From contig NZ_JADPQH010000002.1 of NCBI RefSeq assembly GCF_019173455.1, forward strand, positions 325,490 to 389,489: a stretch of DNA of 64,000 nucleotides. Direction: 5' to 3'. The notes below the pieces were generated by a model. The model saw only the letters and a list, made by a program, of their open reading frames with translations, made no database searches and had not been told where the DNA came from. This DNA comes from Nesterenkonia sp. Act20 (GTDB taxonomy: Bacteria; Actinomycetota; Actinomycetes; Actinomycetales; Micrococcaceae). Below, in pieces: positions 29,473-41,269 of this stretch. Every line of letters starts with the position of its first letter. Position 1 is the stretch's first letter. Position numbers and translations under genes: made by a program.

Positions 29473-29484
29473 GGGATACCTTTG

Positions 29485-29507
29485 AATATCTCAATCATTG
29501 AAATATT
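29485..29507. promoter_or_regulatory. MarR-type candidate operator overlapping the importer-operon -35 box
   Basis: Imperfect 23-bp palindrome: arms AATATCTCAAT and ATTGAAATATT around a single C, one mismatch. The last two bases overlap TTGAAC. Shared 9-mer AATCATTGA and octamer AATATTGA recur in the MarR/SDR intergenic region (33064-33085), so the island's own MarR protein is the likely binder. Confidence 0.6.
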
Positions 29508-29534
29508 GAACTGTAGGCGGGAGGGGCCTATGCT
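29506..29534 (+). promoter_or_regulatory. Promoter of the ABC importer operon
   Basis: TTGAAC (29506-29511) and TATGCT (29529-29534) are spaced by exactly 17 bases, giving an expected start near 29541. A candidate operator overlaps the -35 box and a second palindrome covers the start site. Confidence 0.65.
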
Positions 29535-29535
29535 G

Positions 29536-29560
29536 ACTGTGATGTGTTCTGCATCACAGT
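29536..29560. promoter_or_regulatory. Palindrome ACTGTGATG-N7-CATCACAGT at the importer transcription start
   Basis: Perfect 9+9-base inverted repeat. An extra half-site CTGTGATG lies at 29574-29581, and ATCACAGT recurs at 33100-33107 in the MarR/SDR promoter region. The 7-base centre is not the N6 spacing of a CRP/GlxR site, so the binder is unclear. Confidence 0.55.
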
Positions 29561-29612
29561 GAGTTCGCGCTCCCTGTGATGCGAGGAACGACCTTGCACA
29601 AGGGAGTCATAG

Positions 29613-30662
29613 ATGACCGATGAGCGCGCACGCCCGGGACGAAGGTCCCGCGGCAAGGCACCACTAGACCGTGATGCGGAGATCCACCGGCTGCATCGGT
29701 GGGAGTCCTCCGCCGCCACGGACCGTCGAGGCGGCGACATCCGGCGGCACACCGATGTCTCCACCTCGGCCGCACTGGACATCCCCACCCGGCCAGACCC
29801 CGCAGCCCCGCTGTCCTCGGTCGCGCAGAGCGGCGCCACCGGGCGAGCCACCACCTCAGGCCCCGGCCGAGCCCGACGACGACGACGGCGCGGCCTCGGC
29901 ACCAAGGCCCTCGGGGCGGCCGGCGTCGTCGGCATGCTGCTGACCTGGGAACTCCTGCCTCTCACCGGATTGGTCAACGCACGCTTCCTGCCCCCGGCCC
30001 ACGAGGCCATCGGCGGGCTGATCACCAACTTCGGCCTGACAGACTTCTGGGTCGCCGTCGGTGACACCATGCAGGCCTGGGCGGTCGGCATGATCATCGC
30101 CGTGGTGCTGGCCACCGTACTGGGCTTCATCATCGGCTCCTCCACCTTCCTGCGCCGGTTCACGAACTCCACGATCGAGTTCCTGCGGCCCGTCCCCTCG
30201 GTGGCACTGATCCCGCTGGCGGTGCTGCTCTTCGGCGTGGGGATCGAATCCTCGCTGATGCTGATCGTCTACGCCTGCTTCTGGCAGGTGCTGATCCAGG
30301 TGCTCTACGGGGTCGCCGATGTGGACGCGGTGGCGATGAACACCGCCCGCTCCTACGGCCTCGGCCCCTTCGCGCGGATGCGGTACGTCACCTTCCCCAC
30401 GGCGCTGCCGTATGTGATGACCGGCATTCGCCTCGCGGCGGCGGTGGCGCTGATCCTGGCGATCACCGCCCAGCTGATCATCGGCACACCCGGACTGGGA
30501 GCCGAGATCGCCAGCGCCCAGTCCGGAGGCAACTACATCTCCATGTACGCCCTGGTGCTGGCGACCGGCCTGCTCGGGGTTCTGATCAACCTGGCCATGC
30601 GGATCATCGAACGCAAGATCCTTTCCTGGCACTCTTCGGTCCGCACGGAGGTGGCGGCATGA
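29613..30662 (+). CDS. ABC transporter permease, NitT/TauT (SsuC-like) family, with long cytoplasmic N-terminus
   Basis: Inner-membrane subunit of a nitrate/sulfonate/taurine-type importer, 349 residues. Residues 1-95 are hydrophilic and Arg/Ser/Pro-rich, a longer leader than the roughly 250-260-residue family norm. The permease core follows with the BPD_transp_1 pattern GDTMQAWAVGMIIAVVLATV, EFLRPVPSVALIPLAVLLFG and the EAA-like loop MNTARSYGLGPFARMRYVTF. Start with AAGGGAG upstream. Its stop overlaps the second permease start by 4 bases. In context it probably imports the carboxylate degraded by the neighbouring enzymes. Confidence 0.9.
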   Translation: MTDERARPGRRSRGKAPLDRDAEIHRLHRWESSAATDRRGGDIRRHTDVSTSAALDIPTRPDPAAPLSSVAQSGATGRATTSGPGRARRRRRRGLGTKALGAAGVVGMLLTWELLPLTGLVNARFLPPAHEAIGGLITNFGLTDFWVAVGDTMQAWAVGMIIAVVLATVLGFIIGSSTFLRRFTNSTIEFLRPVPSVALIPLAVLLFGVGIESSLMLIVYACFWQVLIQVLYGVADVDAVAMNTARSYGLGPFARMRYVTFPTALPYVMTGIRLAAAVALILAITAQLIIGTPGLGAEIASAQSGGNYISMYALVLATGLLGVLINLAMRIIERKILSWHSSVRTEVAA

Positions 30663-31432
30663 CATATATCCGTACGTTCCTGAACATCATCGCCCTGCCG
30701 CTGATCCTGCTCGCCATCTGGTTCGTCTCCACCCTGGGCGAGACGAGCTTCTTCGTCCCGACTCCGCAGGCGTTGGTGGAGACCTTCTTCGAGACCTGGA
30801 CCAGCGAGCGATTCGTCAGCGACGTCTTCCCTTCTCTGGGAAGGCTGATGATCGGCATCGTCCTCTCGATCCTGATCGGCATCGGCGCCGGACTGCTGAT
30901 CGGCTCCTTCCGATGGCTGCGCGCACTGCTGGAGCCCACCCTCGAGTTCTTCCGGGCCATCCCGCCACCGGTGCTCATTCCGGTGATCATGCTGCTGATC
31001 GGGATCGGCGACGAGATGAAGGTCTCGGTGATCGTTCTGGGCGCCGTCTGGCCGATCCTGCTGAACACCATCGAAGGCGTGCGCTCCATGGACGAGGTGC
31101 TCGCCGACACCAGCCGCACCTACGGCATGAACAAGATCAACAGCGTCCGTTACCTGATCCTGCCCTCGGCCATGCCGCAGATCATGGCGGGCATCAGGCA
31201 GTCACTCTCCATCGCCCTGATCCTCATGGTGATCTCGGAGATGTTCGCCTCGACTGAGGGGCTCGGCTTCGCCATCGTGCAGTTCCAGCGCTCCTTCGCG
31301 ATCCCCGAGATGTGGTCCGGCATCGTCCTGCTGGGGCTGATCGGCGTCATCCTCTCGTTCATCTTCCAGCTCGCCGAACGCTGGATCCTGGGCTGGTACC
31401 ACGGGTTGCGTGAGATCGAGCAGGCCGCCTGA
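30659..31432 (+). CDS. ABC transporter permease, NitT/TauT family
   Basis: Second, non-identical permease of the importer, 257 residues, the usual length. Helix 1 is TFLNIIALPLILLAIWFVST; the core has EFFRAIPPPVLIPVIMLLIG and the ATPase-contact loop DTSRTYGMNKINSVRYLILP, then MAGIRQSLSIALILMVISEM. It is translationally coupled to the first permease, implying a heterodimeric channel. Confidence 0.92.
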   Translation: MTYIRTFLNIIALPLILLAIWFVSTLGETSFFVPTPQALVETFFETWTSERFVSDVFPSLGRLMIGIVLSILIGIGAGLLIGSFRWLRALLEPTLEFFRAIPPPVLIPVIMLLIGIGDEMKVSVIVLGAVWPILLNTIEGVRSMDEVLADTSRTYGMNKINSVRYLILPSAMPQIMAGIRQSLSIALILMVISEMFASTEGLGFAIVQFQRSFAIPEMWSGIVLLGLIGVILSFIFQLAERWILGWYHGLREIEQAA

Positions 31433-31515
31433 GCACCACCCATCGCAAGCTACTTCTTGCCGGACACATTCACCCGGCTCCGTTGACGAGATGTACCAAG
31501 AGAAGGGACCCGGAG

Positions 31516-32430
31516 ATGACCTCCGAGCACTCACAGCCCACAAATCCCGTGATCAGCCAGTCCGGCGTTCAGGACACCCCCGATGGCCGGATCCCCGTGG
31601 GAAAGACCATGCCCGGGGAGGAGCCGATGCTCTCGGTGCAGAATCTGAAGAAGGTCTACCACACCGACGGCGGCGACATCGAGGCCGTCCGGAACCTCAC
31701 GTTCGACCTGCCGAAGGGCCAGCTGGCCTGTCTGGTCGGGCCCTCCGGCTCCGGAAAGACGACGCTGCTCAAATGCATCTCCGGCCTGATGGCTCCCACC
31801 GAGGGGGAGGTGACCCTGCATGGAGAGAAGGTCACCGGACCGCCCAAGTCCATGGCCGTGGTGTTCCAGGAATACGGGCGCTCACTGTTCCCCTGGCTGC
31901 GCGTGGCCGAGAACGTAGAGCTTCCGCTGAAGAACCAGGGCATGGACAAGACCGCACGCCGCGAGGTGGTGGCCGAGGCACTGGAAGCCGTGGGGCTCTC
32001 CCACGTGCCGAAGTCCTACCCCTGGCAGCTCTCCGGCGGCATGCAGCAGCGCGTGGCGATCGCCCGAGCGGTGGCGTACAAGCCAGAGGTGCTGCTGATG
32101 GACGAGCCCTTCGCAGCCGTGGATGCCCAGACGCGTGCCGATCTGGAGGACCTGGTGCGTGGGATCTGGAAGAAGCTCGGCGTCTCGGTGCTCTTCGTGA
32201 CCCATGACATCGACGAGTCGGTCTACCTGGGTGAGCGGGTCATCATCCTGTCCTCCTCCCCCACCGTCATCCAGGAGGACGTCCTGGTGGACCTGCCGGC
32301 CGAGCGAGATCAGCTCGAGACTCGCTCCTCTCAGCGCTTCGCCGAGCTGCGCCACCACGTCTATGAGCAGATCCAGCTGGCGAAGAAGGGCTTCCGTCCG
32401 GAGGACGCGGTCGCGAACGCCAACGCCTGA
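31516..32430 (+). CDS. ABC transporter ATP-binding protein, NitT/TauT (SsuB/TauB-like) family
   Basis: ATPase energising the two permeases, 304 residues from ATG 31516. An approximately 38-residue polar leader precedes the domain. Walker A GPSGSGKTT, Q-loop VFQEYGRSLFPW, signature QLSGGMQQRVAIARAV, Walker B VLLMDEPFAAVDAQTR and H-loop FVTHDIDESVYLGERVIIL match SsuB/TauB. It ends the importer operon; no binding protein is encoded directly after it. The two binding lipoproteins lie about 4.5 kb away at 36949 and 38089. Confidence 0.93.
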   Translation: MTSEHSQPTNPVISQSGVQDTPDGRIPVGKTMPGEEPMLSVQNLKKVYHTDGGDIEAVRNLTFDLPKGQLACLVGPSGSGKTTLLKCISGLMAPTEGEVTLHGEKVTGPPKSMAVVFQEYGRSLFPWLRVAENVELPLKNQGMDKTARREVVAEALEAVGLSHVPKSYPWQLSGGMQQRVAIARAVAYKPEVLLMDEPFAAVDAQTRADLEDLVRGIWKKLGVSVLFVTHDIDESVYLGERVIILSSSPTVIQEDVLVDLPAERDQLETRSSQRFAELRHHVYEQIQLAKKGFRPEDAVANANA

Positions 32431-32453
32431 GGCGGAGCTGCGGGGCCGCTCCC

Positions 32454-32507
32454 CAGCCGTGCCGGCCGGGTCAGCCGTGCCGGCCGGGTCAGCCGTGCCG
32501 GACGGGT
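32454..32507. repeat. Three 18-bp tandem repeats between convergent genes
   Basis: Units of CAGCCGTGCCGGCCGGGT start at 32454, 32472 and 32490 (the third has one substitution), followed by a partial fourth. They fill most of the 84-base gap between the ATPase stop and the MarR stop. There is no spacer sequence, so this is not a CRISPR array. Confidence 0.85.
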
Positions 32508-32514
32508 CAGCGGA

Positions 32515-33012
32515 TCAGTAGACGATCTTGATCAGCAGCTCGCGCAGCTGATTGCGCTCCGTCGGCGTCAGACCCCGCAGGGTCTGCTCCTCAGCCTGGT
32601 GGGTCCGTTCTGCAGCCTGGGCGTGGAGCTTGCGCCCCGCGGCGGTGGCGGTGAGGATCTTGGAGCGACGGTCCCGCGGATCAGGTTCCCGCTGAAGGAG
32701 GCCCCGCTGCTCCAGCCGATCCACCAGCGCAACCACCTGACTGGGATCCAGATCCAGAAAGTCGCCCAGTTCGCGCTGTGAGGGGTTGGTCCCGGAACAG
32801 GCCATGGCGAGCACGGCGAAGGGCCGCACCTTCAGGTCCAGGTCGCTGAGCAGCTCATTCGCCAGCGCATTGCCCCGGACTCTGGCGCGGGCCGTGAGGA
32901 AGGCGACCTCTTGAGCGAGCGGGGTCTGCTGAAAGCGAGCCATGCCATCCTCGACTCGGTCCTGCGCCGAGGCGGGAGCAGCAGCGGCGGTGGTGGAGCT
33001 CGAGGGGGGCAT
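32515..33012 (-). CDS. MarR family transcriptional regulator
   Basis: Winged-helix regulator of 165 residues from ATG 33012, which has AGGAG six bases upstream. After a Ser/Ala-rich N-terminus come the dimerisation helix, the HTH region NPSQRELGDFLDLDPSQVVALVDRLEQRGLLQR and the wing DPRDRRSKILTATAAGRKL. It is divergent from the SDR operon and convergent with the importer operon. MarR repressors next to CoA-dependent aromatic-acid genes (CouR, PhdR, BadR) typically respond to the acyl-CoA intermediate; I infer the same here. Half-sites shared by both island promoters are the candidate operators. Confidence 0.9.
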   Translation of the reverse strand: MPPSSSTTAAAAPASAQDRVEDGMARFQQTPLAQEVAFLTARARVRGNALANELLSDLDLKVRPFAVLAMACSGTNPSQRELGDFLDLDPSQVVALVDRLEQRGLLQREPDPRDRRSKILTATAAGRKLHAQAAERTHQAEEQTLRGLTPTERNQLRELLIKIVY

Positions 33013-33063
33013 GGGTTCTCCTAGCAGGGCCCTCGGGTGAGGGATTGGACGGATGAGAAGGCA

Positions 33064-33085
33064 AATCATTGACTTTCTCAATATT
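33064..33085. promoter_or_regulatory. MarR-type candidate operator in the MarR/SDR divergent promoter
   Basis: AATCATTGA (33064-33072) and TCAATATT (33078-33085) form an inverted pair ATTGA-N5-TCAAT. TTGACT (33069-33074) would be the -35 box for the SDR operon. The 9-mer is identical to one in the importer promoter at 29493-29501. Confidence 0.55.
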
Positions 33086-33089
33086 ATCA

Positions 33090-33105
33090 AGTGAGATGTA
33101 TCACA
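33090..33105. promoter_or_regulatory. CRP/GlxR-like site AGTGA-N6-TCACA
   Basis: Matches the TGTGA-N6-TCACA consensus of actinobacterial CRP/GlxR regulators with one arm mismatch. It lies between the MarR-type operator and the SDR start, where a cAMP-responsive factor could link the pathway to carbon status. Confidence 0.45.
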
Positions 33106-33155
33106 GTAAGCGTAGGCCGACTGGCCATACAGCTGGCCATACAAGAGGAGAGACT

Positions 33156-34079
33156 ATGTCGTTACAGGGCAAGGTAGCCATCGTGACCGGTTCCGGGGCA
33201 GGCCTGGGCCTGGCATACGCCCAGGAGCTCGCCGCTCAGGGAGCCAGCGTGGTCATCAACGATGTGGATCAGACCACCGCCGACGCCGCCGTGGCATCCA
33301 TCGAAGCCGCAGGCGGTAAGGCAGTGGCAGTCGTCGCGCCGGTCGGCTCCACCGAGACCGCGGAGAAGCTTGTGGAGACCGCGGTGGACAGCTTCGGCGG
33401 CCTGGACATCCTGGTCACCAATGCCGGGATCCTGCGCGACAAGTCGCTGCTGAAGATGTCCGACGAGGACTTCGACGCCGTCATCAACGTCCACCTTAAG
33501 GGCACCTTCACCTGTGTCCGGGCGGCGTATCAGCACTTCAAGACCGAGGGCGTGGCGGGCCGGATCGTCTGCATCGGCTCCCCCACCGGCCAGCGCGGCA
33601 ATTTCGGGCAGACCAACTACGCGGCCGCCAAGGCCGGGATCATCGGGATGGTGCGCACCTGGGCGCTGGAGATGAAGCGTGCGGGTGTGAGCGTCAACGC
33701 CGTCATCCCGGTCGCGGCCACGGCAATGACCAAGACTGTGCCCTACTTCCAGAAGGCTGTCGAGGCCGATGAGCAGGGCGAGCCCATGCCTGACTTCTTC
33801 CGCAAGGGCCTGGGCTTCGGCACCGCGAAGGATGCGGCCGGCGTCGTCGCCTTCCTCTCCTCCGATGCCGTGGACGGGATCACCGGTCAGGTCATCGGCG
33901 CCGGCGGTGACAGGCTCCAGATCTGGAGCCATCCTGAGTCGGTGGTCTCTGAGTACCACGACGGCGGCTGGGACTACGAGACCCTGCAGAGCCAGGGCGG
34001 TGAGCTGCTGCGCGCGAATCTGCAATCAGTGGGCGAGTCCATGCCGGAGCTCCCGCCCGAGCTGGAGCCCACCAGCTAG
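33156..34079 (+). CDS. SDR family oxidoreductase, (3R)-hydroxyacyl-CoA dehydrogenase-like
   Basis: NAD(P)-dependent dehydrogenase of 307 residues; ATG 33156 has AGGAG. The cofactor loop TGSGAGLGLAYA is at about 11-22. NAGILRDKSLLKMSDEDFDA and VHLKGTF resemble the dehydrogenase part of MFE-2 multifunctional enzymes. The catalytic Tyr/Lys lie in NFGQTNYAAAKAGIIG, with Ser in GSPTGQRG. The C-terminus (about 250-307) is longer than in FabG. I infer that it oxidises a 3-hydroxyacyl-CoA made by the MaoC hydratase. It is the first gene of the SDR, amidohydrolase, acyl-CoA dehydrogenase set. Confidence 0.88.
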   Translation: MSLQGKVAIVTGSGAGLGLAYAQELAAQGASVVINDVDQTTADAAVASIEAAGGKAVAVVAPVGSTETAEKLVETAVDSFGGLDILVTNAGILRDKSLLKMSDEDFDAVINVHLKGTFTCVRAAYQHFKTEGVAGRIVCIGSPTGQRGNFGQTNYAAAKAGIIGMVRTWALEMKRAGVSVNAVIPVAATAMTKTVPYFQKAVEADEQGEPMPDFFRKGLGFGTAKDAAGVVAFLSSDAVDGITGQVIGAGGDRLQIWSHPESVVSEYHDGGWDYETLQSQGGELLRANLQSVGESMPELPPELEPTS

Positions 34080-34138
34080 CCAGCCCACCCAGCCGACCGA
34101 GCCTGAGGACCCGTCGAGATCAGGAGAGGAGCCCTGCG

Positions 34139-35038
34139 ATGCGTTATCAATCAGCCATTGATCTGAGCACCATCGAGGCCGTGGACACCCATGTCCATCT
34201 GGAGATGGATTCCAGCGGGCATCGGGCGCTGCCCGAGGTGTTCTTCGAGGCCTCCGCGAAGTACTTCAAGACCGCCGAGCGCACACCGAGCATCGATCGG
34301 ATCGCGGAGGTCTACCGTGACCACCGGATGGCCGCCGTGGTCTTCACTGTGGATGCTCGCACGCAGCTGAAGCACGCTCCCAACTCCATCGATGACCTGG
34401 TCGCAGGGTGCCTGCGCAATAATGACGTCCTGCTGCCCTTCGGATCGGTGGACCCATGGCTGGGCGCCGAAGCCATCGCCGAGGCCCGGCGTCAGGCCGA
34501 GGAGCTCGGCGTACGCGGGTTCAAGTTTCACCCCACCGTGCAGGGCTTCGACCCCTCGGACCCGCAGCACTACCCGCTGTGGGAGGCCCTGGAAGAGATC
34601 GGGCTTCCGCTGATCTTCCACACCGGGCAGAACGGAATGGGCGCAGGCACTCCCGGTGGTGGTGGGCTGAAGCTGAAGTACTCCAACCCGTTGCTGCTCG
34701 ACGACGTCGCAGCGGACTTCCCGCAGCTGCCCATCATCATGGCGCACCCCTCGGTGCCCTGGCAGGACGAGGCGATCTCGATCGCAACACATAAGTCCAA
34801 CGTCTACATCGACCTCTCCGGCTGGTCACCGAAGTACTTCCCACAGGCTCTGGTGCGCAGTGCGAACAACATCCTCTCGGCCAAGCTGCTCTTCGGCACG
34901 GACTATCCGCTGATCACCCCAGAGAAGTGGCTCACCGCCTTCGCCGAGCTGCCGATCAAGGACGAGGTGCGCCCACGGATCCTCAAGCACAACGCCGTGG
35001 CGCTGCTGGGGCTCGACGCCGGAGCCGACGATGCGTGA
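34139..35038 (+). CDS. Amidohydrolase_2 family protein, candidate beta-ketoacyl-CoA hydrolase
   Basis: TIM-barrel metal hydrolase of 299 residues (PF04909-type). Metal ligands are visible: HxH in VDTHVHLEMD (about 15-24), FHTGQ, MAHPSVPW and the late Asp in FGTDYPL; RGFKFHPTVQGF contributes an active-site lysine/His. Related enzymes decarboxylate aromatic acids or, in phenylpropanoid side-chain degradation (CouO/PhdC-type as I recall), hydrolyse 4-hydroxyphenyl-beta-ketoacyl-CoA to a benzoate and acetyl-CoA. That fits the absence of a thiolase here. It overlaps the acyl-CoA dehydrogenase start by 8 bases. Family sure; reaction inferred from context. Confidence 0.82.
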   Translation: MRYQSAIDLSTIEAVDTHVHLEMDSSGHRALPEVFFEASAKYFKTAERTPSIDRIAEVYRDHRMAAVVFTVDARTQLKHAPNSIDDLVAGCLRNNDVLLPFGSVDPWLGAEAIAEARRQAEELGVRGFKFHPTVQGFDPSDPQHYPLWEALEEIGLPLIFHTGQNGMGAGTPGGGGLKLKYSNPLLLDDVAADFPQLPIIMAHPSVPWQDEAISIATHKSNVYIDLSGWSPKYFPQALVRSANNILSAKLLFGTDYPLITPEKWLTAFAELPIKDEVRPRILKHNAVALLGLDAGADDA

Positions 35039-36227
35039 ACCAGTGCGCGGCAGCGTCATCCCCTCAGACCTCTACGGCTTCGCCGAACGGCTGAGCACCG
35101 CAGAGCGCACAGTGATCACCGAGCTGCGCCGGGTGCTCACCGAGGAGGTCCACCCGCACCTGAATGCGGCATGGGACGAAGCACGTTTCCCCGAGGAGAT
35201 CATCGCCCCACTGCAGGGACAGCAACTCATGGATCCGCCGGCGCTGCGCGCGGCGGGTGAACCCATCCGGGACATCTTCCTCGGTTTCCGCAACTTCGAG
35301 CTCTCCCGCTGTGACATCAACGTCGCCACCTACTACAACGCGGCCGCAAGCCTGTTCCGCACGGTCTGTGCCCTGGGCGGCTCTCCCGAGCAGGCTCGCG
35401 AACTCGACGCGAAGATCATCACGCACGAGCTGACCGGTGTCTTCGCGCTGACCGAGCCCGACCACGGCTCCGATGTGGCAGGCGGCCTCGCCACTGAGGC
35501 CACCCAGGATCCAGGAACCGGAGACTGGATCATCAACGGCGCCAAACGCTGGATCGGGGGTGCGGGCGCCGCCGACGTCGTCGCGACCTTTGCTCGAGAC
35601 ACCGCCGACTCCCAGGTGAAGTGTTTCCTGGTCCCGACCTCCGCGCCGGGCCTGAGCATGACCACCATCGAACACAAGGCCTCGCTGCGCATCATGCAGA
35701 ACGCCGACATCAGCTATCGCGAGGTGAGGGTCCCGGAGAGCGCTCGGCTGCAACGGATCAACAGCTTCACCGACGTCGCCGGCTGTCTGCGACGCATGCG
35801 TTCGGATGTGGCATGGATGGCCACCGGGGCGATGGCGGGTGCCTACGAGGCGGCACTGGACTACGTGGCGCGCCGCGAGCAGTTTGGCCGGCCCATCGCC
35901 GGCTTCCAGCTGGTCCAGGAGAAGCTCGCGATGATGCTGGGGAATCTCACCGCCTCCCTGGGCATGGTCGTTCAGCTGAGCGAGCAGCAGGCCGCCGGGA
36001 CCTACCGGGATGAGAATTCCGCGCTCGCAAAGATGTACACCTCGCTTCGACTGCGCGAGACCGTGGCGCTGGCACGCGAGGTCTGCGGAGGCAACGGGAT
36101 CACCCTGGACACCGATGTGGCGCGCTTCCACGCCGACGCGGAGGCCATCTACTCCTATGAGGGCACTCACGAGATCAATGCGCTGATCGTCGGGCGGGCG
36201 GTGACAGGAGTGGGCGCCTTCACCTAG
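35031..36227 (+). CDS. Acyl-CoA dehydrogenase, glutaryl-CoA dehydrogenase-like subgroup
   Basis: FAD-dependent desaturase of 398 residues. Landmarks are FALTEPDHGSDVAGG (FAD/substrate loop near 140), WIINGAKRWIGGAGAADVV, the FAD-binding AARREQFGRPIAGFQL-type helix (YVARREQFGRPI) and the C-terminal AIYSYEGTHEINALIVGRAV, whose Glu is the likely catalytic base, as in the glutaryl-CoA dehydrogenase group. In the proposed pathway it would introduce the alpha,beta double bond in an aryl-propionyl-CoA. No electron-transfer flavoprotein is encoded nearby. Coupled to the amidohydrolase. Confidence 0.92.
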   Translation: MREPVRGSVIPSDLYGFAERLSTAERTVITELRRVLTEEVHPHLNAAWDEARFPEEIIAPLQGQQLMDPPALRAAGEPIRDIFLGFRNFELSRCDINVATYYNAAASLFRTVCALGGSPEQARELDAKIITHELTGVFALTEPDHGSDVAGGLATEATQDPGTGDWIINGAKRWIGGAGAADVVATFARDTADSQVKCFLVPTSAPGLSMTTIEHKASLRIMQNADISYREVRVPESARLQRINSFTDVAGCLRRMRSDVAWMATGAMAGAYEAALDYVARREQFGRPIAGFQLVQEKLAMMLGNLTASLGMVVQLSEQQAAGTYRDENSALAKMYTSLRLRETVALAREVCGGNGITLDTDVARFHADAEAIYSYEGTHEINALIVGRAVTGVGAFT

Positions 36228-36366
36228 GACCTCACAGTGCCTCCGGGCACCTGGTCGGGGATCACGAGAAAACGACACCAAATCCAAATCAATAATTCGC
36301 CTGGGCATACGCCTATCCAGAATAAAATGTGACCTAGAACACACCCACCTTGAGTCGAGGAGCAGA

Positions 36367-36840
36367 ATGACTGACACCAATGCAGCCCGGACCGTCGTAT
36401 CTTTCGAAGACGCACGATCGATGGCCGGCACCGACCTGGGGCAGACCGCCTGGCGCGAGATCACTCAGGACATGATCAACACCTTCGCCGATGCCACCGA
36501 CGATCAACAGTGGATCCACGTCGATCCTGAACGCGCCAAGGACGGACCCTTCGGCGCACCGATCGCCCACGGCTTCCTGACGCTCTCCCTGATCATCCCC
36601 TTCTGGGGCGAACTCTTCGACGTCACCGATGTCAGCACGAAGCTCAACTACGGCCTGGACAAGGTGCGCTTCACCGCACCGGTGCCGGTCGGTTCGCGAG
36701 TTCGCATGCACGGCACCATCCGCGACGTCGAAGAGGTCAAGGGAGGCGGCCTCCACCTGGTCGTCGACGCGACCTTCGAGGTCGAAGGTCAGGAACGCCC
36801 CGCTGTCGTGGCGACCTTCCTGGCGCGCTTCTACCCGTGA
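36367..36840 (+). CDS. MaoC family dehydratase (R-specific enoyl-CoA hydratase type)
   Basis: Hot-dog-fold hydratase of 157 residues, single domain. The catalytic Asp/His pair is in FADATDDQQWIHVDPERA and the following PFGAPIAHGFLTLSLI; FTAPVPVGSRVRM is the typical strand. Members hydrate trans-2-enoyl-CoA to (3R)-hydroxyacyl-CoA, stereochemically matching the MFE-2-like SDR upstream. A 139-base gap with a TAAAAT hexamer (36323-36328) and a half-site TCAATAATT (36289-36297) suggests its own promoter. Confidence 0.92.
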   Translation: MTDTNAARTVVSFEDARSMAGTDLGQTAWREITQDMINTFADATDDQQWIHVDPERAKDGPFGAPIAHGFLTLSLIIPFWGELFDVTDVSTKLNYGLDKVRFTAPVPVGSRVRMHGTIRDVEEVKGGGLHLVVDATFEVEGQERPAVVATFLARFYP

Positions 36841-36948
36841 GCCGACGCCCCTCATGACCAAACACACCCGAGCATCCGCCATCACCGCACTGACTCTCTA
36901 CCCCACCGTGGGCCGCCCTTCCGCGACCCCACACCTCAAGGAGCAATC

Positions 36949-37953
36949 ATGAAGAAGAATGTCGCATCCATCACCGGCATCGCAGCGATCAGCATCCTCG
37001 CGCTGAGCGCCTGCGGGTCCGGCTCCGCGTCCGGCGGCGATGACGCCGAGGCCGAGGGCGAGACCAGCAGCGAAGGCGGTGAGCTGACCCCGATCACCGT
37101 GGGCGTGCTGCCGATCGCCCCCTCCGTGGGGATCTATTACGGCATCGAGAACGGCATCTTCGAGGAGCACGGGCTCGACGTCGAGCTCTCCACCTCGAAC
37201 GCCGGCGCCGCCATGCTGCCCGCGGTGAACGCCCAGCAGCTGCAGTTCGGAATCGGAAACCCGAACTCCGTGCTCAACGCCAATGACCGCGGACTCGATA
37301 TGCGGATCGTCACCGGCTACTCGAACTCGCTGGCCGAAGGCGATGACATCGCCGGCGTCGTCTCCACGGTGGAGAGCGGGATCGAGGACTGGGAAGACCT
37401 TGAGGGCAACACCGTCTCGGTGAACGCGCTGAAGACCCAGGGCGACCTCACCATCATGGAATCGGTGGAGCAGGCCGGAGGTGACCCTTCCGCGGTGGAA
37501 TTCTCCGAGATGCCCTTCCCTGACATGCCGGCCCAGCTTGAGCAGGGCAACACGGACGCCATCTGGGTCCCCGAGCCCTTTCTGAGCAGCGCGCTCGCCG
37601 ATGAGGCGAATCAGCTGGTCGGGTACTCCTTCCAGGACGCGATCCCCGGGATGCCCACCATGGTGAGCTTCAGCTCCGGGGAGTACGTGGAGGAGAATCC
37701 CGAGGTCGCCCAGGCCTTCTCTGACGCCATGACGGAGTCGCTGCAGATGGCCGAGGAGGACGAGGAGGGCACCAGGGCCCTGCTGCCGGAATTCATCGAC
37801 CTGCCGGAGGAGGCTGCCGAGAACCTCCGCATGGAAGAACTCAACGCTGAGATCCCGACCGATGAGATCGAGCAGGCAGGCGCGCTGATGGTGAAGTTCG
37901 ACTTCATCGATTCGGAGCCCGACACCTCCACCCTGTACTTCGAAGGTGAATAA
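36949..37953 (+). CDS. ABC transporter substrate-binding lipoprotein, NMT1/TauA-like (copy 1)
   Basis: Extracytoplasmic binding protein of 334 residues anchored by a lipobox (LALSACGSG, Cys near 23). After a Gly/Ser/Glu-rich linker, ITVGVLPIAPSVGIYYGIENGIFEEHGLDVEL opens the NitT/TauT-type periplasmic fold, with INVAL-type hinge segments and EDWEDLEGNTVSVNALKTQG. It is very acidic. It belongs with the importer at 29613-32430 but is transcribed with the catabolic genes. A paralogue follows. Confidence 0.9.
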   Translation: MKKNVASITGIAAISILALSACGSGSASGGDDAEAEGETSSEGGELTPITVGVLPIAPSVGIYYGIENGIFEEHGLDVELSTSNAGAAMLPAVNAQQLQFGIGNPNSVLNANDRGLDMRIVTGYSNSLAEGDDIAGVVSTVESGIEDWEDLEGNTVSVNALKTQGDLTIMESVEQAGGDPSAVEFSEMPFPDMPAQLEQGNTDAIWVPEPFLSSALADEANQLVGYSFQDAIPGMPTMVSFSSGEYVEENPEVAQAFSDAMTESLQMAEEDEEGTRALLPEFIDLPEEAAENLRMEELNAEIPTDEIEQAGALMVKFDFIDSEPDTSTLYFEGE

Positions 37954-37968
37954 CTGATCAGCCACTGA

Positions 37969-38007
37969 TGGCGGGCAACGAGGAGCCACGTCCCAAGTTG
38001 CCCGCCA
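37969..38007 (+). terminator. 11-bp hairpin between the two binding-protein genes
   Basis: TGGCGGGCAAC (37969-37979) and GTTGCCCGCCA (37997-38007) pair perfectly around a 17-base loop. No T-run follows, so it may attenuate transcription or stabilise the upstream mRNA, giving unequal expression of the two lipoproteins. Confidence 0.65.
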
Positions 38008-38088
38008 GAGGTGTCAGACGCTGTCGCAGGACCCATGGACGCCCAACACACCCTTGGACTTCGCACCTCCAGAGACCGGAGAACTGAC

Positions 38089-39096
38089 ATGAAAAACCTA
38101 TCCAGCGGGGCGTTCGCCCTGTCCGCCGTGCTCGCCTTGACCGCCTGCGGAAGCGGGTCTCCGGCTGGAGATGCCGACGGCGAACCAGCCGGGGACGAGG
38201 GAGCGGACTCATCGAATGGGGAGCTGACCGAGGTCGAGGTCGGGCTGATCCCAATCGTTGACGTTGCTCCCATCTATCTCGGCCAGCAGGAGGGCATCTT
38301 CGAAGAGCATGGCCTCGACCTGACGCTGACCCTGGCACAGGGCGGTGCCGCCATCATCCCCGCGGTCTCCTCCGGGGACCTGGACTTTGGTTTCTCCAAC
38401 GTGACCTCCCTGCTCATCGCCGCCGACAATGGACTGCCGCTGCAGACCGTGGCCGCGGGGCCGCAGACCACCGGGGATTCCGAGAATGACTTCGGCGCAG
38501 TCCTGGTCAAGCCAGAATCCGGCATCGAATCCGCACAGGACCTCGAGGGCCAGCGGGTGGCGGTGAACACGCTCAACAACATCTCCGACTCGATGATCTC
38601 CCAAGGCGTGGAGGACGCTGGAGGGGACCCAGCCAACGTTGACTTCGTAGAGGTCGGCTTCCCGGACATGCTCGCCCAACTGGAAGCTGACAATGTCGAC
38701 GCGATCTTCGCCGTCGACCCCTTCGCGAGCATGGCTGACGACCAAGGATACGACCGCATCTTCGCCCCCTACGCTGACGTGGTGGACGAATTGGGCGTCG
38801 GCACCTACTTCGCCTCCCAGCAGCTGGTCGATGAAGACCCCGAGCTGATTGAGAGCTTCCACACGGCGGTTCGGGAGTCTCAGGCCTATGCCGAAGAGAA
38901 CCCTGAGGCGGTGCGCGAAGTCCTGCTGGAGTACACGTCCATCGAAGAATCCATGCTGGAGGAGATCACGATCCCCGCCTTCCCAGAGGACGTCAATCTT
39001 GATTCGCTCAACGAGGTCGCCGAGATCTCTGAACGGCACGGACTCATCGGCGAGGTCCCCAACACCGACGACCTGGTCTGGGAGGGCGCCCGATGA
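38089..39096 (+). CDS. ABC transporter substrate-binding lipoprotein, NMT1/TauA-like (copy 2)
   Basis: Paralogue of the preceding lipoprotein, 335 residues from ATG 38089 (GGAG eight bases upstream). Lipobox LALTACGSG; shared architecture VEVGLIPIVDVAPIYLGQQEGIFEEHGLDLTL, SGIESAQDLEGQRVAVNTLNN, VDFVEVGFPDMLAQLEADNVDAIFAVDPF. The ligand-facing segments differ from copy 1, so the two may serve related but different acids through the same permeases. The stop overlaps an upstream in-frame ATG of the CoA ligase by 4 bases. Confidence 0.9.
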   Translation: MKNLSSGAFALSAVLALTACGSGSPAGDADGEPAGDEGADSSNGELTEVEVGLIPIVDVAPIYLGQQEGIFEEHGLDLTLTLAQGGAAIIPAVSSGDLDFGFSNVTSLLIAADNGLPLQTVAAGPQTTGDSENDFGAVLVKPESGIESAQDLEGQRVAVNTLNNISDSMISQGVEDAGGDPANVDFVEVGFPDMLAQLEADNVDAIFAVDPFASMADDQGYDRIFAPYADVVDELGVGTYFASQQLVDEDPELIESFHTAVRESQAYAEENPEAVREVLLEYTSIEESMLEEITIPAFPEDVNLDSLNEVAEISERHGLIGEVPNTDDLVWEGAR

Positions 39097-39125
39097 CCCC
39101 TCCGACACACACAGGAGCGCGGACG

Positions 39126-40679
39126 ATGAAGAATCATGGCATCGGAGATTGGATCCACCGACGGCGCGTGCGGTCCCAGGGTCAGAAGGCACTGACCAGC
39201 GCTGCTGGCGAACTGACCTATGATCAGCTCGCCGAGCGGATCGATCGGCTCGCCAATGCACTGGCGGACCGGGGCGTCAGGCCAGGTGACCGGGTGGCCT
39301 ACCTGGGCGAGAACTCTCCCGCTTTTCTGGAGACACTCTTCGCCGCCGGAAGCCTGGGAGCGGTCTTCGTCCCGCTGAACACCCGTCTCGCTCCGCCGGA
39401 GATCCAGTTCGCGCTGAAGGATTCGGGGGCCACGCTGCTGGTCGCCTCCACCACACTGGAGCCGTTGGCTGCCTCGGGATCCCGGGACACGGCGGTCGAA
39501 CGCCTGCTGATCGTCGAGGACGGCAAACGGCCGCGCCCCGAGCAGGAGTTTGCGGTGGTCGCCGAGGCGTTCGAGGATGCCCTGCGGTCAGGCTCCACGG
39601 TCCGCCCCGATGTCGCGGTGACACTGGAGGACCTCGCTGTCATCCTCTACACCTCCGGGACCACGGGCAATCCCAAGGGCGCGATGCTCACCCATGGGAA
39701 CCTCACCTGGAACGCGATCAATGTGCTCACCGACTTCGACCTCTCCAGCAAGGATGTCGCGTTGATGATCGCTCCGCTGTTCCATGTCGCAGCACTGGGC
39801 CAGGGCGCCCTCCCGGTGCTGCTCAAGGGTGGGAGCATCATCCTGGAACAGAAGTTCGAACCCGGCCGTGTGCTCGCGCTGATCGAAGCCCACCGGGTCA
39901 CGAACATCTCCGGAGTGCCTACGACGTTTCAGCTGCTCTGTGAACATCCGAACTGGGAGTCCACCGACATTTCCTCGCTGCGAAACCTCACCTGCGGTGG
40001 TTCCGCGGTGCCGCTGCGGGTCCTCGACGCCTACGAGAGCCGCGGGCTGGCGTTCACGATGGGTTACGGCATGACCGAAACCTCGCCTGGTGCCACGACT
40101 CTGCCGCCGGCATATTCCCGATCCAAACAAGGGTCCGGCGGACTGGCGCATTTCCACACCGATGTCCGTGTGGTGGACCCGGAGGATCAGCCCTGCCCGG
40201 TGGGCGAGGTTGGTGAGATCCAGGTCCACGGGCCCAATGTCATTGCGGAGTATTGGAACCGGCCCGAAGCCACCGCCAGCTCCTTCGTCCATGAGACGCA
40301 CGGCACGTGGCTCAAGACCGGAGACATGGGCTACTTGGACGAGGACGGGTTCCTCTTCATCTCCGACCGGCTCAAAGACATGATCATCTCCGGTGGAGAG
40401 AACATCTACCCGGCGCAGGTCGAACAACAGATCGCCTCGATGGAAGAGGTCGCCGCCGTCGCCGTCATCGGGGTTGAGGACGCGCGGTGGGGCGAGGTCC
40501 CGCGTGCGGTGATCGTCGTCCGGGAGGGTTACGAGCTCACCGAGGAGCAGGTGCTCGGGTATCTGGACGGCAAGCTGGCCCGCTACAAGATTCCCAAATC
40601 GGTGGTCTTCGTGGAATCCATGCCGCGCACCGCCTCGGGCAAGATCCGCAAGCCAGACCTGCGGAAACAGTACGCCTAG
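39126..40679 (+). CDS. Acyl-CoA synthetase (class I adenylate-forming, aryl/fatty acid-CoA ligase)
   Basis: Activates a carboxylic acid to its CoA thioester via an acyl-adenylate; 517 residues from ATG 39126 (AGGAG eight bases upstream). An ATG at 39093 overlapping the lipoprotein stop is the alternative and would add 11 residues. Motifs: A3 YTSGTTGNPKGAMLTHGN, A5 GYGMTETSPGATTLP, A7 WLKTGDMGYLDEDGFLFISD, and the A10 lysine in TASGKIRKPDLR. Substrate is not readable, but the context favours an aryl-propanoid or related acid. Its stop codon is shared, through CTAG, with the convergent PadR gene. Confidence 0.92.
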   Translation: MKNHGIGDWIHRRRVRSQGQKALTSAAGELTYDQLAERIDRLANALADRGVRPGDRVAYLGENSPAFLETLFAAGSLGAVFVPLNTRLAPPEIQFALKDSGATLLVASTTLEPLAASGSRDTAVERLLIVEDGKRPRPEQEFAVVAEAFEDALRSGSTVRPDVAVTLEDLAVILYTSGTTGNPKGAMLTHGNLTWNAINVLTDFDLSSKDVALMIAPLFHVAALGQGALPVLLKGGSIILEQKFEPGRVLALIEAHRVTNISGVPTTFQLLCEHPNWESTDISSLRNLTCGGSAVPLRVLDAYESRGLAFTMGYGMTETSPGATTLPPAYSRSKQGSGGLAHFHTDVRVVDPEDQPCPVGEVGEIQVHGPNVIAEYWNRPEATASSFVHETHGTWLKTGDMGYLDEDGFLFISDRLKDMIISGGENIYPAQVEQQIASMEEVAAVAVIGVEDARWGEVPRAVIVVREGYELTEEQVLGYLDGKLARYKIPKSVVFVESMPRTASGKIRKPDLRKQYA

Positions 40680-41269
40680 GGCGTGTGATCTGCTTCGAGT
40701 TCCGCCAGCAGAATCAGTCCGCGGTTCGCCCAGTCCACCTCGGCCTGGGCGAGCCGAATCAATCCGTCATAGGCAAACGACTTGAACGCCACGATCCGCT
40801 CATGCTGCTCCGCTGGATACCGCTGCAGCCGCGCCGCGATCATCGGGTGCTCGTGGGACTCGATGTCCCGGACCTGCTGACTCCACTGGTCGATCTGCTC
40901 CTGGTAGTGCTGCGCGTGCTGCTGCAGGTGCATGCGCACGCTGTCCGGATCGGTCCACTCGAAGTAGGCCGCCTGCATATGCGCCACGTCTCGCCAGGGC
41001 GCGTACTTCAACGGGGTGGACATCCAGCTTCGAAAGGCGGCCTCACCCTCCGAGGTGATGTAGTACCGAGTCTTGAGCCGGTTCGGCCCCCAGCGTTCCT
41101 CGCGACCTTCGATGAGCGCCTCCGCCTCCATCCGACGCAGCTCGGGGTAGATCTGTGAATCGGGGGCATGCCAGACGTGACCCACCGAGCCTTCGAACCG
41201 CTTCGCCGTCTCATAGCCGGTCAAGGGTGCCGCGGTAAGAATCGCCAGAATGGCGTAGCGCAGGCTCAA
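40676..41269 (-). CDS. PadR family transcriptional regulator
   Basis: Winged-helix regulator of 197 residues. MSLRYAILAILTAAPLTGYE is the classic PadR N-terminus, followed by PDSQIYPELRRMEAEALIEG (recognition helix) and the wing RYYITSEGEAAF, then a C-terminal dimerisation domain of the virulence-activator type. PadR proteins often control phenolic-acid genes, so its position at the end of this island is suggestive. It overlaps the CoA-ligase gene tail-to-tail by 4 bases. Confidence 0.92.
   Translation of the reverse strand: MSLRYAILAILTAAPLTGYETAKRFEGSVGHVWHAPDSQIYPELRRMEAEALIEGREERWGPNRLKTRYYITSEGEAAFRSWMSTPLKYAPWRDVAHMQAAYFEWTDPDSVRMHLQQHAQHYQEQIDQWSQQVRDIESHEHPMIAARLQRYPAEQHERIVAFKSFAYDGLIRLAQAEVDWANRGLILLAELEADHTP

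Follow-up and report, generated by a model that had tools for sequence, protein, structure and literature searches.

Does a bacterial gene island for the breakdown of an aryl acid side chain bring its own importer, and which acid would it serve? The question is raised by positions 29613 to 40679 of a 64,000-nucleotide stretch of the Nesterenkonia sp. Act20 genome (contig NZ_JADPQH010000002.1, positions 325,490 to 389,489; hereafter the window), where genes for coenzyme A (CoA)-dependent enzymes stand together with those of an ATP-binding cassette (ABC) importer of the NitT/TauT type. From the genes present, their orthology and order, their conservation, the operator-like sites and the genes for downstream steps, all computed here, we infer every catalytic step, the importer's ligand and transport, and the regulation. 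The reading that we favour, with a probability of roughly 0.77, is that the island is a regulon of the phd/cou type for p-hydroxycinnamic acids with its own ABC importer. Candidate substrates are p-coumarate and perhaps caffeate, ferulate and the dihydro forms.

Gene content and gene order of the island

The eleven genes of the island are all open, from the start of permease A at 29613 to the stop of the CoA ligase at 40679, and have Pfam matches above the curated cut-offs: BPD_transp_1 (twice), ABC_tran and NMT1 (twice) among the transporter genes, and MarR, adh_short, Amidohydro_2, acyl-CoA dehydrogenase domains, MaoC_dehydratas and AMP-binding among the others. These are the families that a sequence-only reading of the block had named; its remark that no thiolase is present also holds for the eleven genes by open reading frame and Pfam family assignment. 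Its gene boundaries stand as open frames and are corrected in three places: marR lies on the minus strand with a likely start at 33012, the gene of the second substrate-binding protein (SBP2) probably starts at 38089, and the ATPase gene starts at 31516.

29613-30662, plus strand: NitT/TauT-type ABC permease A (PF00528)
30659-31432, plus strand: NitT/TauT-type ABC permease B (PF00528)
31516-32430, plus strand: ABC importer ATPase (PF00005)
32515-33012, minus strand: CouR/PhdR-like MarR regulator (PF12802/PF01047; start codon picked by eye)
33156-34079, plus strand: short-chain dehydrogenase/reductase (SDR), predicted 3-hydroxyacyl-CoA dehydrogenase, PhdB-like (PF00106)
34139-35038, plus strand: amidohydrolase, predicted aryl beta-ketoacyl-CoA hydrolase, PhdC/CouO-like (PF04909)
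35031-36227, plus strand: acyl-CoA dehydrogenase (ACAD), PhdD-like by position (PF00441/PF02770)
36367-36840, plus strand: MaoC-type enoyl-CoA hydratase, PhdE-like by position (PF01575)
36949-37953, plus strand: SBP1, NMT1-type binding lipoprotein (PF09084)
38089-39096, plus strand: SBP2, NMT1-type binding lipoprotein (PF09084; 38089 is the most likely start)
39093-40679, plus strand: predicted aryl-acid CoA ligase, CouL/PhdA-like (PF00501; its start overlaps the SBP2 stop)

The gene ends overlap between permeases A and B, amidohydrolase and ACAD, and SBP2 and ligase, which suggests operon-like expression of these pairs. Lipobox-like LSAC/LTAC motifs, read by eye, are present in SBP1 and SBP2.

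Gene order was compared with that of 20 relatives, picked as close amidohydrolase matches. The whole order is kept in 8 of them, two more (L045 and L047) keep it with an extra SBP2-like gene, and in L039 it is complete except for the SBP2 match and PadR; the series MarR-SDR-amidohydrolase-ACAD-MaoC is kept in all 20. Because the order is kept among these relatives, the gene content of the island is not chance.

One more regulator gene follows the ligase, on the minus strand as is marR inside the island:

40676-41269, minus strand: PadR-family regulator (PF03551), a conserved neighbour whose membership in the system is uncertain

It adjoins the ligase in 9 of the 20 relatives. PadR genes also lie near related importers or clusters at L047, L070, L181 and L198.

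Comparison of the enzymatic core with phd-type and cou-type clusters

In genome G754, the genes of a major facilitator superfamily (MFS) carrier, a ligase and a MarR regulator are followed by SDR-amidohydrolase-ACAD-MaoC (locus L179). Because of its gene order, which includes a neighbouring gene that we take to be GlxR-like, G754 looks like C. glutamicum. The published equation of phdBCDE with cg0344-47 (PMC5948850) and the functions given to PhdA (ligase), PhdE (hydratase), PhdB (dehydrogenase) and PhdC (3-oxoacyl-CoA ketohydrolase) (PMC5479773) agree with this order, and by elimination PhdD would be the ACAD. As in the C. glutamicum phd cluster (phdT, phdA, phdR, phdBCDE), MarR in the island is divergent from SDR-amidohydrolase-ACAD-MaoC in the same order, with 72-75% identity over the four enzymes (SDR 72%, amidohydrolase 74%, ACAD 75%, MaoC 74%) and 50% for MarR. 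The island differs in three respects: the phd ligase lies elsewhere in its cluster and is only 41-42% identical (41% for the G754 protein), the phd cluster has an MFS carrier where the island has the ABC importer with two binding proteins, and the phd cluster holds no PadR match.

The second genome, G678, is probably R. jostii RHA1-like: over 135 residues, one of its proteins is 100% identical to the solved CouR. In its cluster (L162), CouR and SDR-amidohydrolase-MaoC point away from each other; the ligase, next to an MFS carrier, lies on the far side of CouR at a distance of about 5 kb. The RHA1 cou cluster (CouR, CouO, CouL, CouT) shares with the island the amidohydrolase route under CouR, the operator motif and 57-64% identity over three core enzymes (SDR 64%, amidohydrolase 59%, MaoC 57%; MarR is 39% and the ligase 44% identical); unlike in the island, its amidohydrolase and MaoC have no ACAD between them (there is a 30% match some 9 kb off), and an MFS carrier takes the place of the importer. 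The comparison with CouL and PhdA that had been proposed for the ligase gave wide margins: its best match in G678 is the cou ligase (432.7 against 328.6 bits for the next, first of 158 matches) and in G754 the phd ligase (391.8 against 213.5 bits, first of 14), the island and phd ligases being each other's first match.

For the amidohydrolase, pairwise identity is 73.6% over 299 amino acids to the phd-type protein of G754 and 58.6% over 292 amino acids to the G678 protein beside CouR, which answers the comparison with CouO and PhdC that had been proposed. SDR and MaoC partners adjoin it, as in the phd/cou-type pathway. It is also 50.0% identical to a Rhizobium protein deposited as 4-hydroxyphenyl-beta-ketoacyl-CoA hydrolase, whose cluster also holds a feruloyl-CoA synthase; no NCBIfam family matched it at E 0.001. 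Residues D16, H18, H20, K129, H131, H161, H203 and D255 do not vary among the 26 rows of the alignment, and we take them, from general knowledge of the superfamily, to be the metal and catalytic residues. Apart from the transporter, all sequence features tested place the island in the phd/cou type, and the phd-type pathway proposed earlier finds its counterpart in content, order and identity.

A related chemistry, the beta-oxidation-like cleavage of an aryl side chain to a free acid and acetyl-CoA through enzymes that resemble the ones used on hydroxycinnamates, is described for Rhodococcus ruber PipUVWX (PMC12753220). The likeness to the island lies in the type of cleavage and is drawn from description, not sequence; the substrate studied there is piperic acid.

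In a tree of amidohydrolases, in which the rows of the window's family include Micrococcus, Arthrobacter and Kocuria, the phd protein of L179 nests among Micrococcaceae and not with the Rhodococcus-type cou proteins; grouping it with the latter was rejected (p-AU 0.0023, the group having been named after the tree was seen). This nesting suggests that the phd cluster was horizontally transferred. Another type of amidohydrolase cluster, with 46-61% identity and a different gene order, was seen at L200 (G020), L079, L099 and L108; L200 holds no CouR-type box at up to one mismatch.

The MarR regulator and its operator-like sites

The two best solved relatives of the island's MarR are 3fm5 and 5cyv (E about 2e-22), both of them CouR. 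Opposite CouR Arg36 and Arg38 the alignment places Lys and Arg; the CouR paper reports Lys at the Arg36-equivalent position in C. glutamicum and Arthrobacter. The CouR box is given as cATTGA-N5-TCAATg (PMC4737184), and at up to one mismatch it occurs at only two sites in the 64 kb, the first two of these features:

29481-29495: CouR-type box TTTGAATATCTCAAT, one mismatch, 117 bp before the first importer gene
33068-33082: CouR-type box ATTGACTTTCTCAAT, exact, in the MarR/SDR divergent promoter, aligned in relatives
33090-33105: possible CRP/GlxR-like site AGTGA-N6-TCACA, adjoining the exact CouR box, kept in 10 genus rows

Shuffled windows held 0.32 CouR-box sites on average. Both boxes are kept in 9 of the 10 same-genus loci of the window's layout (the window and L031-L039), and in the aligned upstream regions the block around the importer box stands out against a diverged background. 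We scanned the 32 loci with both permeases for a box with at most one mismatch within 400 bp before the first importer gene. It was found in 14 of them, namely nine same-genus loci and L047, L056, L077, L086 and L093; from the background of 46 sites in 624 kb, about one would be expected among 32 upstream regions. The sequence evidence thus points to a MarR of the CouR/PhdR type with matching operator-like sites.

The third site resembles what we take to be the CRP/GlxR consensus and makes carbon-source control possible. Between the importer-side box and permease A, at 29533-29582, lie the imperfect palindromes CTGACTGTGATG/CATCACAGTGAG and GCATCACAGTGAG/CTCCCTGTGATGC, partly kept in the genus, where a second regulator may bind.

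Family and distribution of the importer

The importer has a full set of parts, with NMT1 binding proteins, BPD permeases and an ATPase of the Tau/Ssu/Nrt group; the NCBIfam models closest to its genes are those for Sao, taurine, sulfonate and nitrate systems, all below cut-offs. Both permeases occur in 15 of the 20 close relatives and beside the core in 16 of 80 named loci, upstream, downstream or inverted; these 80 are the best of at least 575 confirmed matches, and the proportions are no census. The named importer loci belong to Microbacterium, Leucobacter, Cryobacterium, Arthrobacter, Zafaria, Micromonospora, Geodermatophilus and an unclassified actinomycete. A quick tree, which carried warnings of long branches, separates permeases A from permeases B in clades of 30 and 32 rows. 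Two permeases lie outside both clades: that of a second NMT1-linked importer in this genome (25%) and one at L079 (26%).

A search of 98 genomes gave 29 matches to permease B with at least 50% identity. Counted by eye, and with the G020 paralogue scored as an amidohydrolase match, 21 of these are no more than 15 kb from an amidohydrolase match, 3 stand close to pca genes where the core is missing (G017, G029 and G033), and the remaining 5 have neither nearby. G032 has the importer, the core, the pca genes and a pobA-like gene within about 20 kb, the importer lying 14.5 kb from the amidohydrolase. Of the five with neither, the importer in G049 is near vanillate genes, with LigM (822.8 bits against a cut-off of 580) and 4-oxalomesaconate tautomerase (448.9 against 440) as neighbours; in G010 a second copy adjoins a P450 and a 2Fe-2S reductase, and in G050 the neighbours are a CoA ligase, a flavin hydroxylase and an FAA-hydrolase; the surroundings in G085 and G073 gave no hint of function. 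These neighbourhoods are the best evidence that the importer group may handle aromatic acids.

Importer relatives beside P450 and 2Fe-2S reductase pairs were also seen in L196 (4872-12199) and L198 (5245-17608), the latter with LigM and oxalomesaconate tautomerase as well; these are possible O-demethylation clusters for methoxylated aromatic acids.

No CouT/PhdT-type MFS carrier was found in the 21 kb around the island, where the ABC importer stands instead. From 115 loci at the start, we counted the 88 with SDR (at least 50%), amidohydrolase and MaoC. Within locus stretches of about 20 kb, beyond which transporters would not be visible, the importer (both permeases) is present in 30, a CouT/PhdT-like MFS in 24 and both in one, whose MFS is only 30% identical. 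A plain Fisher test of this exclusion gave 1.3e-4; it ignores relatedness, and at least two genomes are counted twice (L044/L053 and L040/L051). A chance neighbourhood of importer and core was weighed against the conservation, the operator sites and the occurrence elsewhere, and was set aside. The pairing of importer and core is real, conserved and not unique to this strain.

Downstream genes and the likely substrate

The pca genes of the same genome lie on the island's contig at about 0.80-0.81 Mb, some 0.44 Mb from the island. PcaH and PcaG score over their curated cut-offs, PcaB-, PcaD- and PcaR-like genes fall below theirs, and an MFS carrier in this cluster is nearest to the aromatic acid/H+ symport model, also below cut-off. 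The same region holds an aldehyde dehydrogenase gene and a PobA-like gene that passes the subfamily cut-off. A profile search found no PF00848 ring-hydroxylating dioxygenase in this genome. Because a PobA-like enzyme and PcaHG are encoded with no PF00848 dioxygenase, the product is more likely 4-hydroxybenzoate than benzoate, a refinement of the benzoate plus acetyl-CoA that the sequence-only reading had proposed, and p-hydroxy substrates would fit best. Cinnamate or 3-phenylpropionate as the main substrate is possible and, with no PF00848 dioxygenase, less likely.

Co-occurrence was counted in 58 genomes, in sets typed by hand and with thresholds of our own. The amidohydrolase had to be full length and at least 53%. 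PF00775 had to reach 136 bits, as it does in 29 genomes (the family cut-off is passed in 34 of 58), and the PobA-like protein 300 bits, as it does in 27 genomes (the TIGR02360 cut-off is passed in none of the 58). G020, with a 46% paralogue, and G017, with the gene in pieces, were scored as lacking the amidohydrolase. Kinship being ignored in all these counts, a strong intradiol dioxygenase and a strong PobA-like match are both present in all 17 genomes with the amidohydrolase, against 12 and 10, respectively, of the 41 without it; within the genus only, 12 of 12 have both, against 8 and 7 of 18. PF00848 is unassociated with the amidohydrolase (10 of 17 genomes against 15 of 41), and thus is missing in 7 of the 17 as well.

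Proposed pathway and alternative explanations

In the proposed pathway, SBP1 or SBP2 would capture the acid, and the two permeases with the ATPase would import it. The ligase would form the CoA thioester, the ACAD would desaturate the arylpropanoyl-CoA if the substrate is saturated, MaoC would hydrate and SDR would then oxidise, and the amidohydrolase, replacing a thiolase, would split the beta-ketoacyl-CoA into hydroxybenzoate and acetyl-CoA. From 4-hydroxybenzoate, PobA would lead into the protocatechuate pathway, whose genes lie in another part of the genome. Until an aryl-CoA releases it, MarR would act through the CouR-type boxes to repress the enzyme and importer promoters.

Several observations weigh against this proposal. 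Neither importer nor MFS is seen within the stretch in 35 of the 88 loci, and in a tree-based pairing test, with four starred independent pairs, the exclusion of importer and MFS is not significant. The importer-side box departs from the motif at one position, and two or more sites turned up in 4 of 100 shuffled windows. This box is missing in 18 of the 32 loci, and 9 of the 14 positives are of one genus. Among ten further importer loci (L192-L201) it precedes permease A in only two, by 102 bp in L192, whose importer is on a contig with pobA, pca and core, and by 111 bp in L198, whose importer is beside LigM; L193, L199, L200 and L201, of the window's genus and other layouts, have no box before the importer. 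The PobA-like gene does not reach the stricter equivalog cut-off (TIGR02360), and no match in the 58 genomes does. Aromatic decarboxylases are among the top solved fold matches of the amidohydrolase, at less than 20% identity, and the solved structures nearest to SBP1 by Foldseek bind pyrimidine precursors, thiamin, alkanesulfonates or taurine.

For the enzymes, the fold matches would allow the amidohydrolase to be an ACMSD-type aromatic decarboxylase. Its AlphaFold2 model (pLDDT 92.9) has 2,6-dihydroxybenzoate decarboxylase chains (2dvt, 18% identity) and the uncharacterised BB4693 as top Foldseek matches; the modelled fold is that of the ACMSD-like branch, and fold alone does not separate hydrolase from decarboxylase. 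The clustering with decarboxylases that the sequence-only reading had named as telling against it is thus seen in fold and not in sequence or gene order. Since sequence and gene order decide here, we chose the CouO/PhdC type: 58.6-73.6% identity to such proteins in the same gene order, together with the half-identical deposited hydrolase, make a decarboxylase very improbable, and it was rejected. Another variant, which is compatible with the favoured pathway and which we consider unlikely, has as natural substrate a saturated side-chain acid, for example 3-(4-hydroxyphenyl)propanoate, or an alicyclic analogue, with the ACAD as the first oxidative step. The ACAD does lie inside the core operon, as in the phd-type cluster, and several related clusters lack it there; yet CouR and PhdR are reported to respond to unsaturated hydroxycinnamoyl-CoA thioesters, and the dehydrogenase may serve a side branch.

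The importer leaves more room for other accounts. It could be an ordinary sulfonate, taurine or nitrate importer that merely adjoins phd-type enzymes, as the best models for the binding proteins (SsuA-family and taurine, below cut-offs), the hydroxymethylpyrimidine-, thiamin-, sulfonate- and taurine-binding neighbours of SBP1, and the lack of a CouR-type box before most importers outside the window's layout would suggest. The ligand of SBP1 is not readable from the fold neighbours of its model (pLDDT 87.1), and a merely adjoining importer fits poorly with the box that precedes it here and in 9 of 10 same-layout loci, with the same importer clade beside the core in other families and arrangements, and with the places of the 29 permease B matches (21 near an amidohydrolase match, 3 close to pca genes, one of the remaining five next to LigM); we judge it quite improbable. 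We kept a second account because importer relatives adjoin pca, LigM and similar genes: the importer may take ring acids or lignin monomers (4-hydroxybenzoate, protocatechuate, vanillate), instead of or besides hydroxycinnamates, which is compatible with the enzymes as favoured here. The relatives beside pca genes without the core (G029, G033, G017) and beside LigM and oxalomesaconate tautomerase (G049) point this way, as does the pair of binding proteins, which suggests two ligands and possibly carries different acids. Against it, the genome's pca cluster, about 0.44 Mb away, has its own MFS, and the island importer carries a CouR-type box, so that we regard it as possible though doubtful.

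Relation to known importers and implications

Aromatic acids are known substrates of ABC importers. OphFGH is described as a TauT-family importer of phthalate; it is like the proposed system in importing an aromatic acid and unlike it in that this is phthalate, not a hydroxycinnamate. In the RHA1-like genome, an NMT1 importer lies beside Rieske dioxygenases (L208), which we take to be PatDABC; permeases of this TauT-family aromatic group are only 23-27% identical to the island's permease B. CouPSTU of R. palustris, which belongs to another ABC family, resembles the proposal in its role, being reported as an importer for p-coumarate under CouR, a regulation shared with the catabolic genes; unlike the island, it has a hydratase/lyase enzyme beside it. 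In titles and abstract openings of open-access PMC papers, among the matches listed, neither a NitT/TauT importer for hydroxycinnamates nor a phd/cou pathway with a TauT-type importer under a CouR-type operator is named. The sequence-only reading had called the pairing new. The pairing recurs beyond this strain. The pathway has been described before and so, with TauT-family phthalate import, has the uptake of an aromatic acid by this type of importer; what appears to be new is the link to hydroxycinnamates and the CouR-type box.

We lean, at little better than even odds, towards a wider proposal: a NitT/TauT-type clade that occurs in Micrococcales, in Micromonospora and in certain further actinobacteria would be dedicated to plant aromatic acids (hydroxycinnamates, hydroxybenzoates, methoxybenzoates) and would repeatedly have replaced the MFS carrier CouT/PhdT in the CouR regulon. 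At present its genes probably carry the names of sulfonate, nitrate or taurine importers. If true, this would give a substrate class to an importer group so far placed only loosely near sulfonate, nitrate and taurine systems, and would provide uptake parts for lignin-monomer conversion. The regulator's box together with the exclusion of the known carrier would offer a cheap route to naming importers. A CouR-type regulon could then carry a binding-protein importer instead of an MFS carrier, which would suit a scarce substrate.

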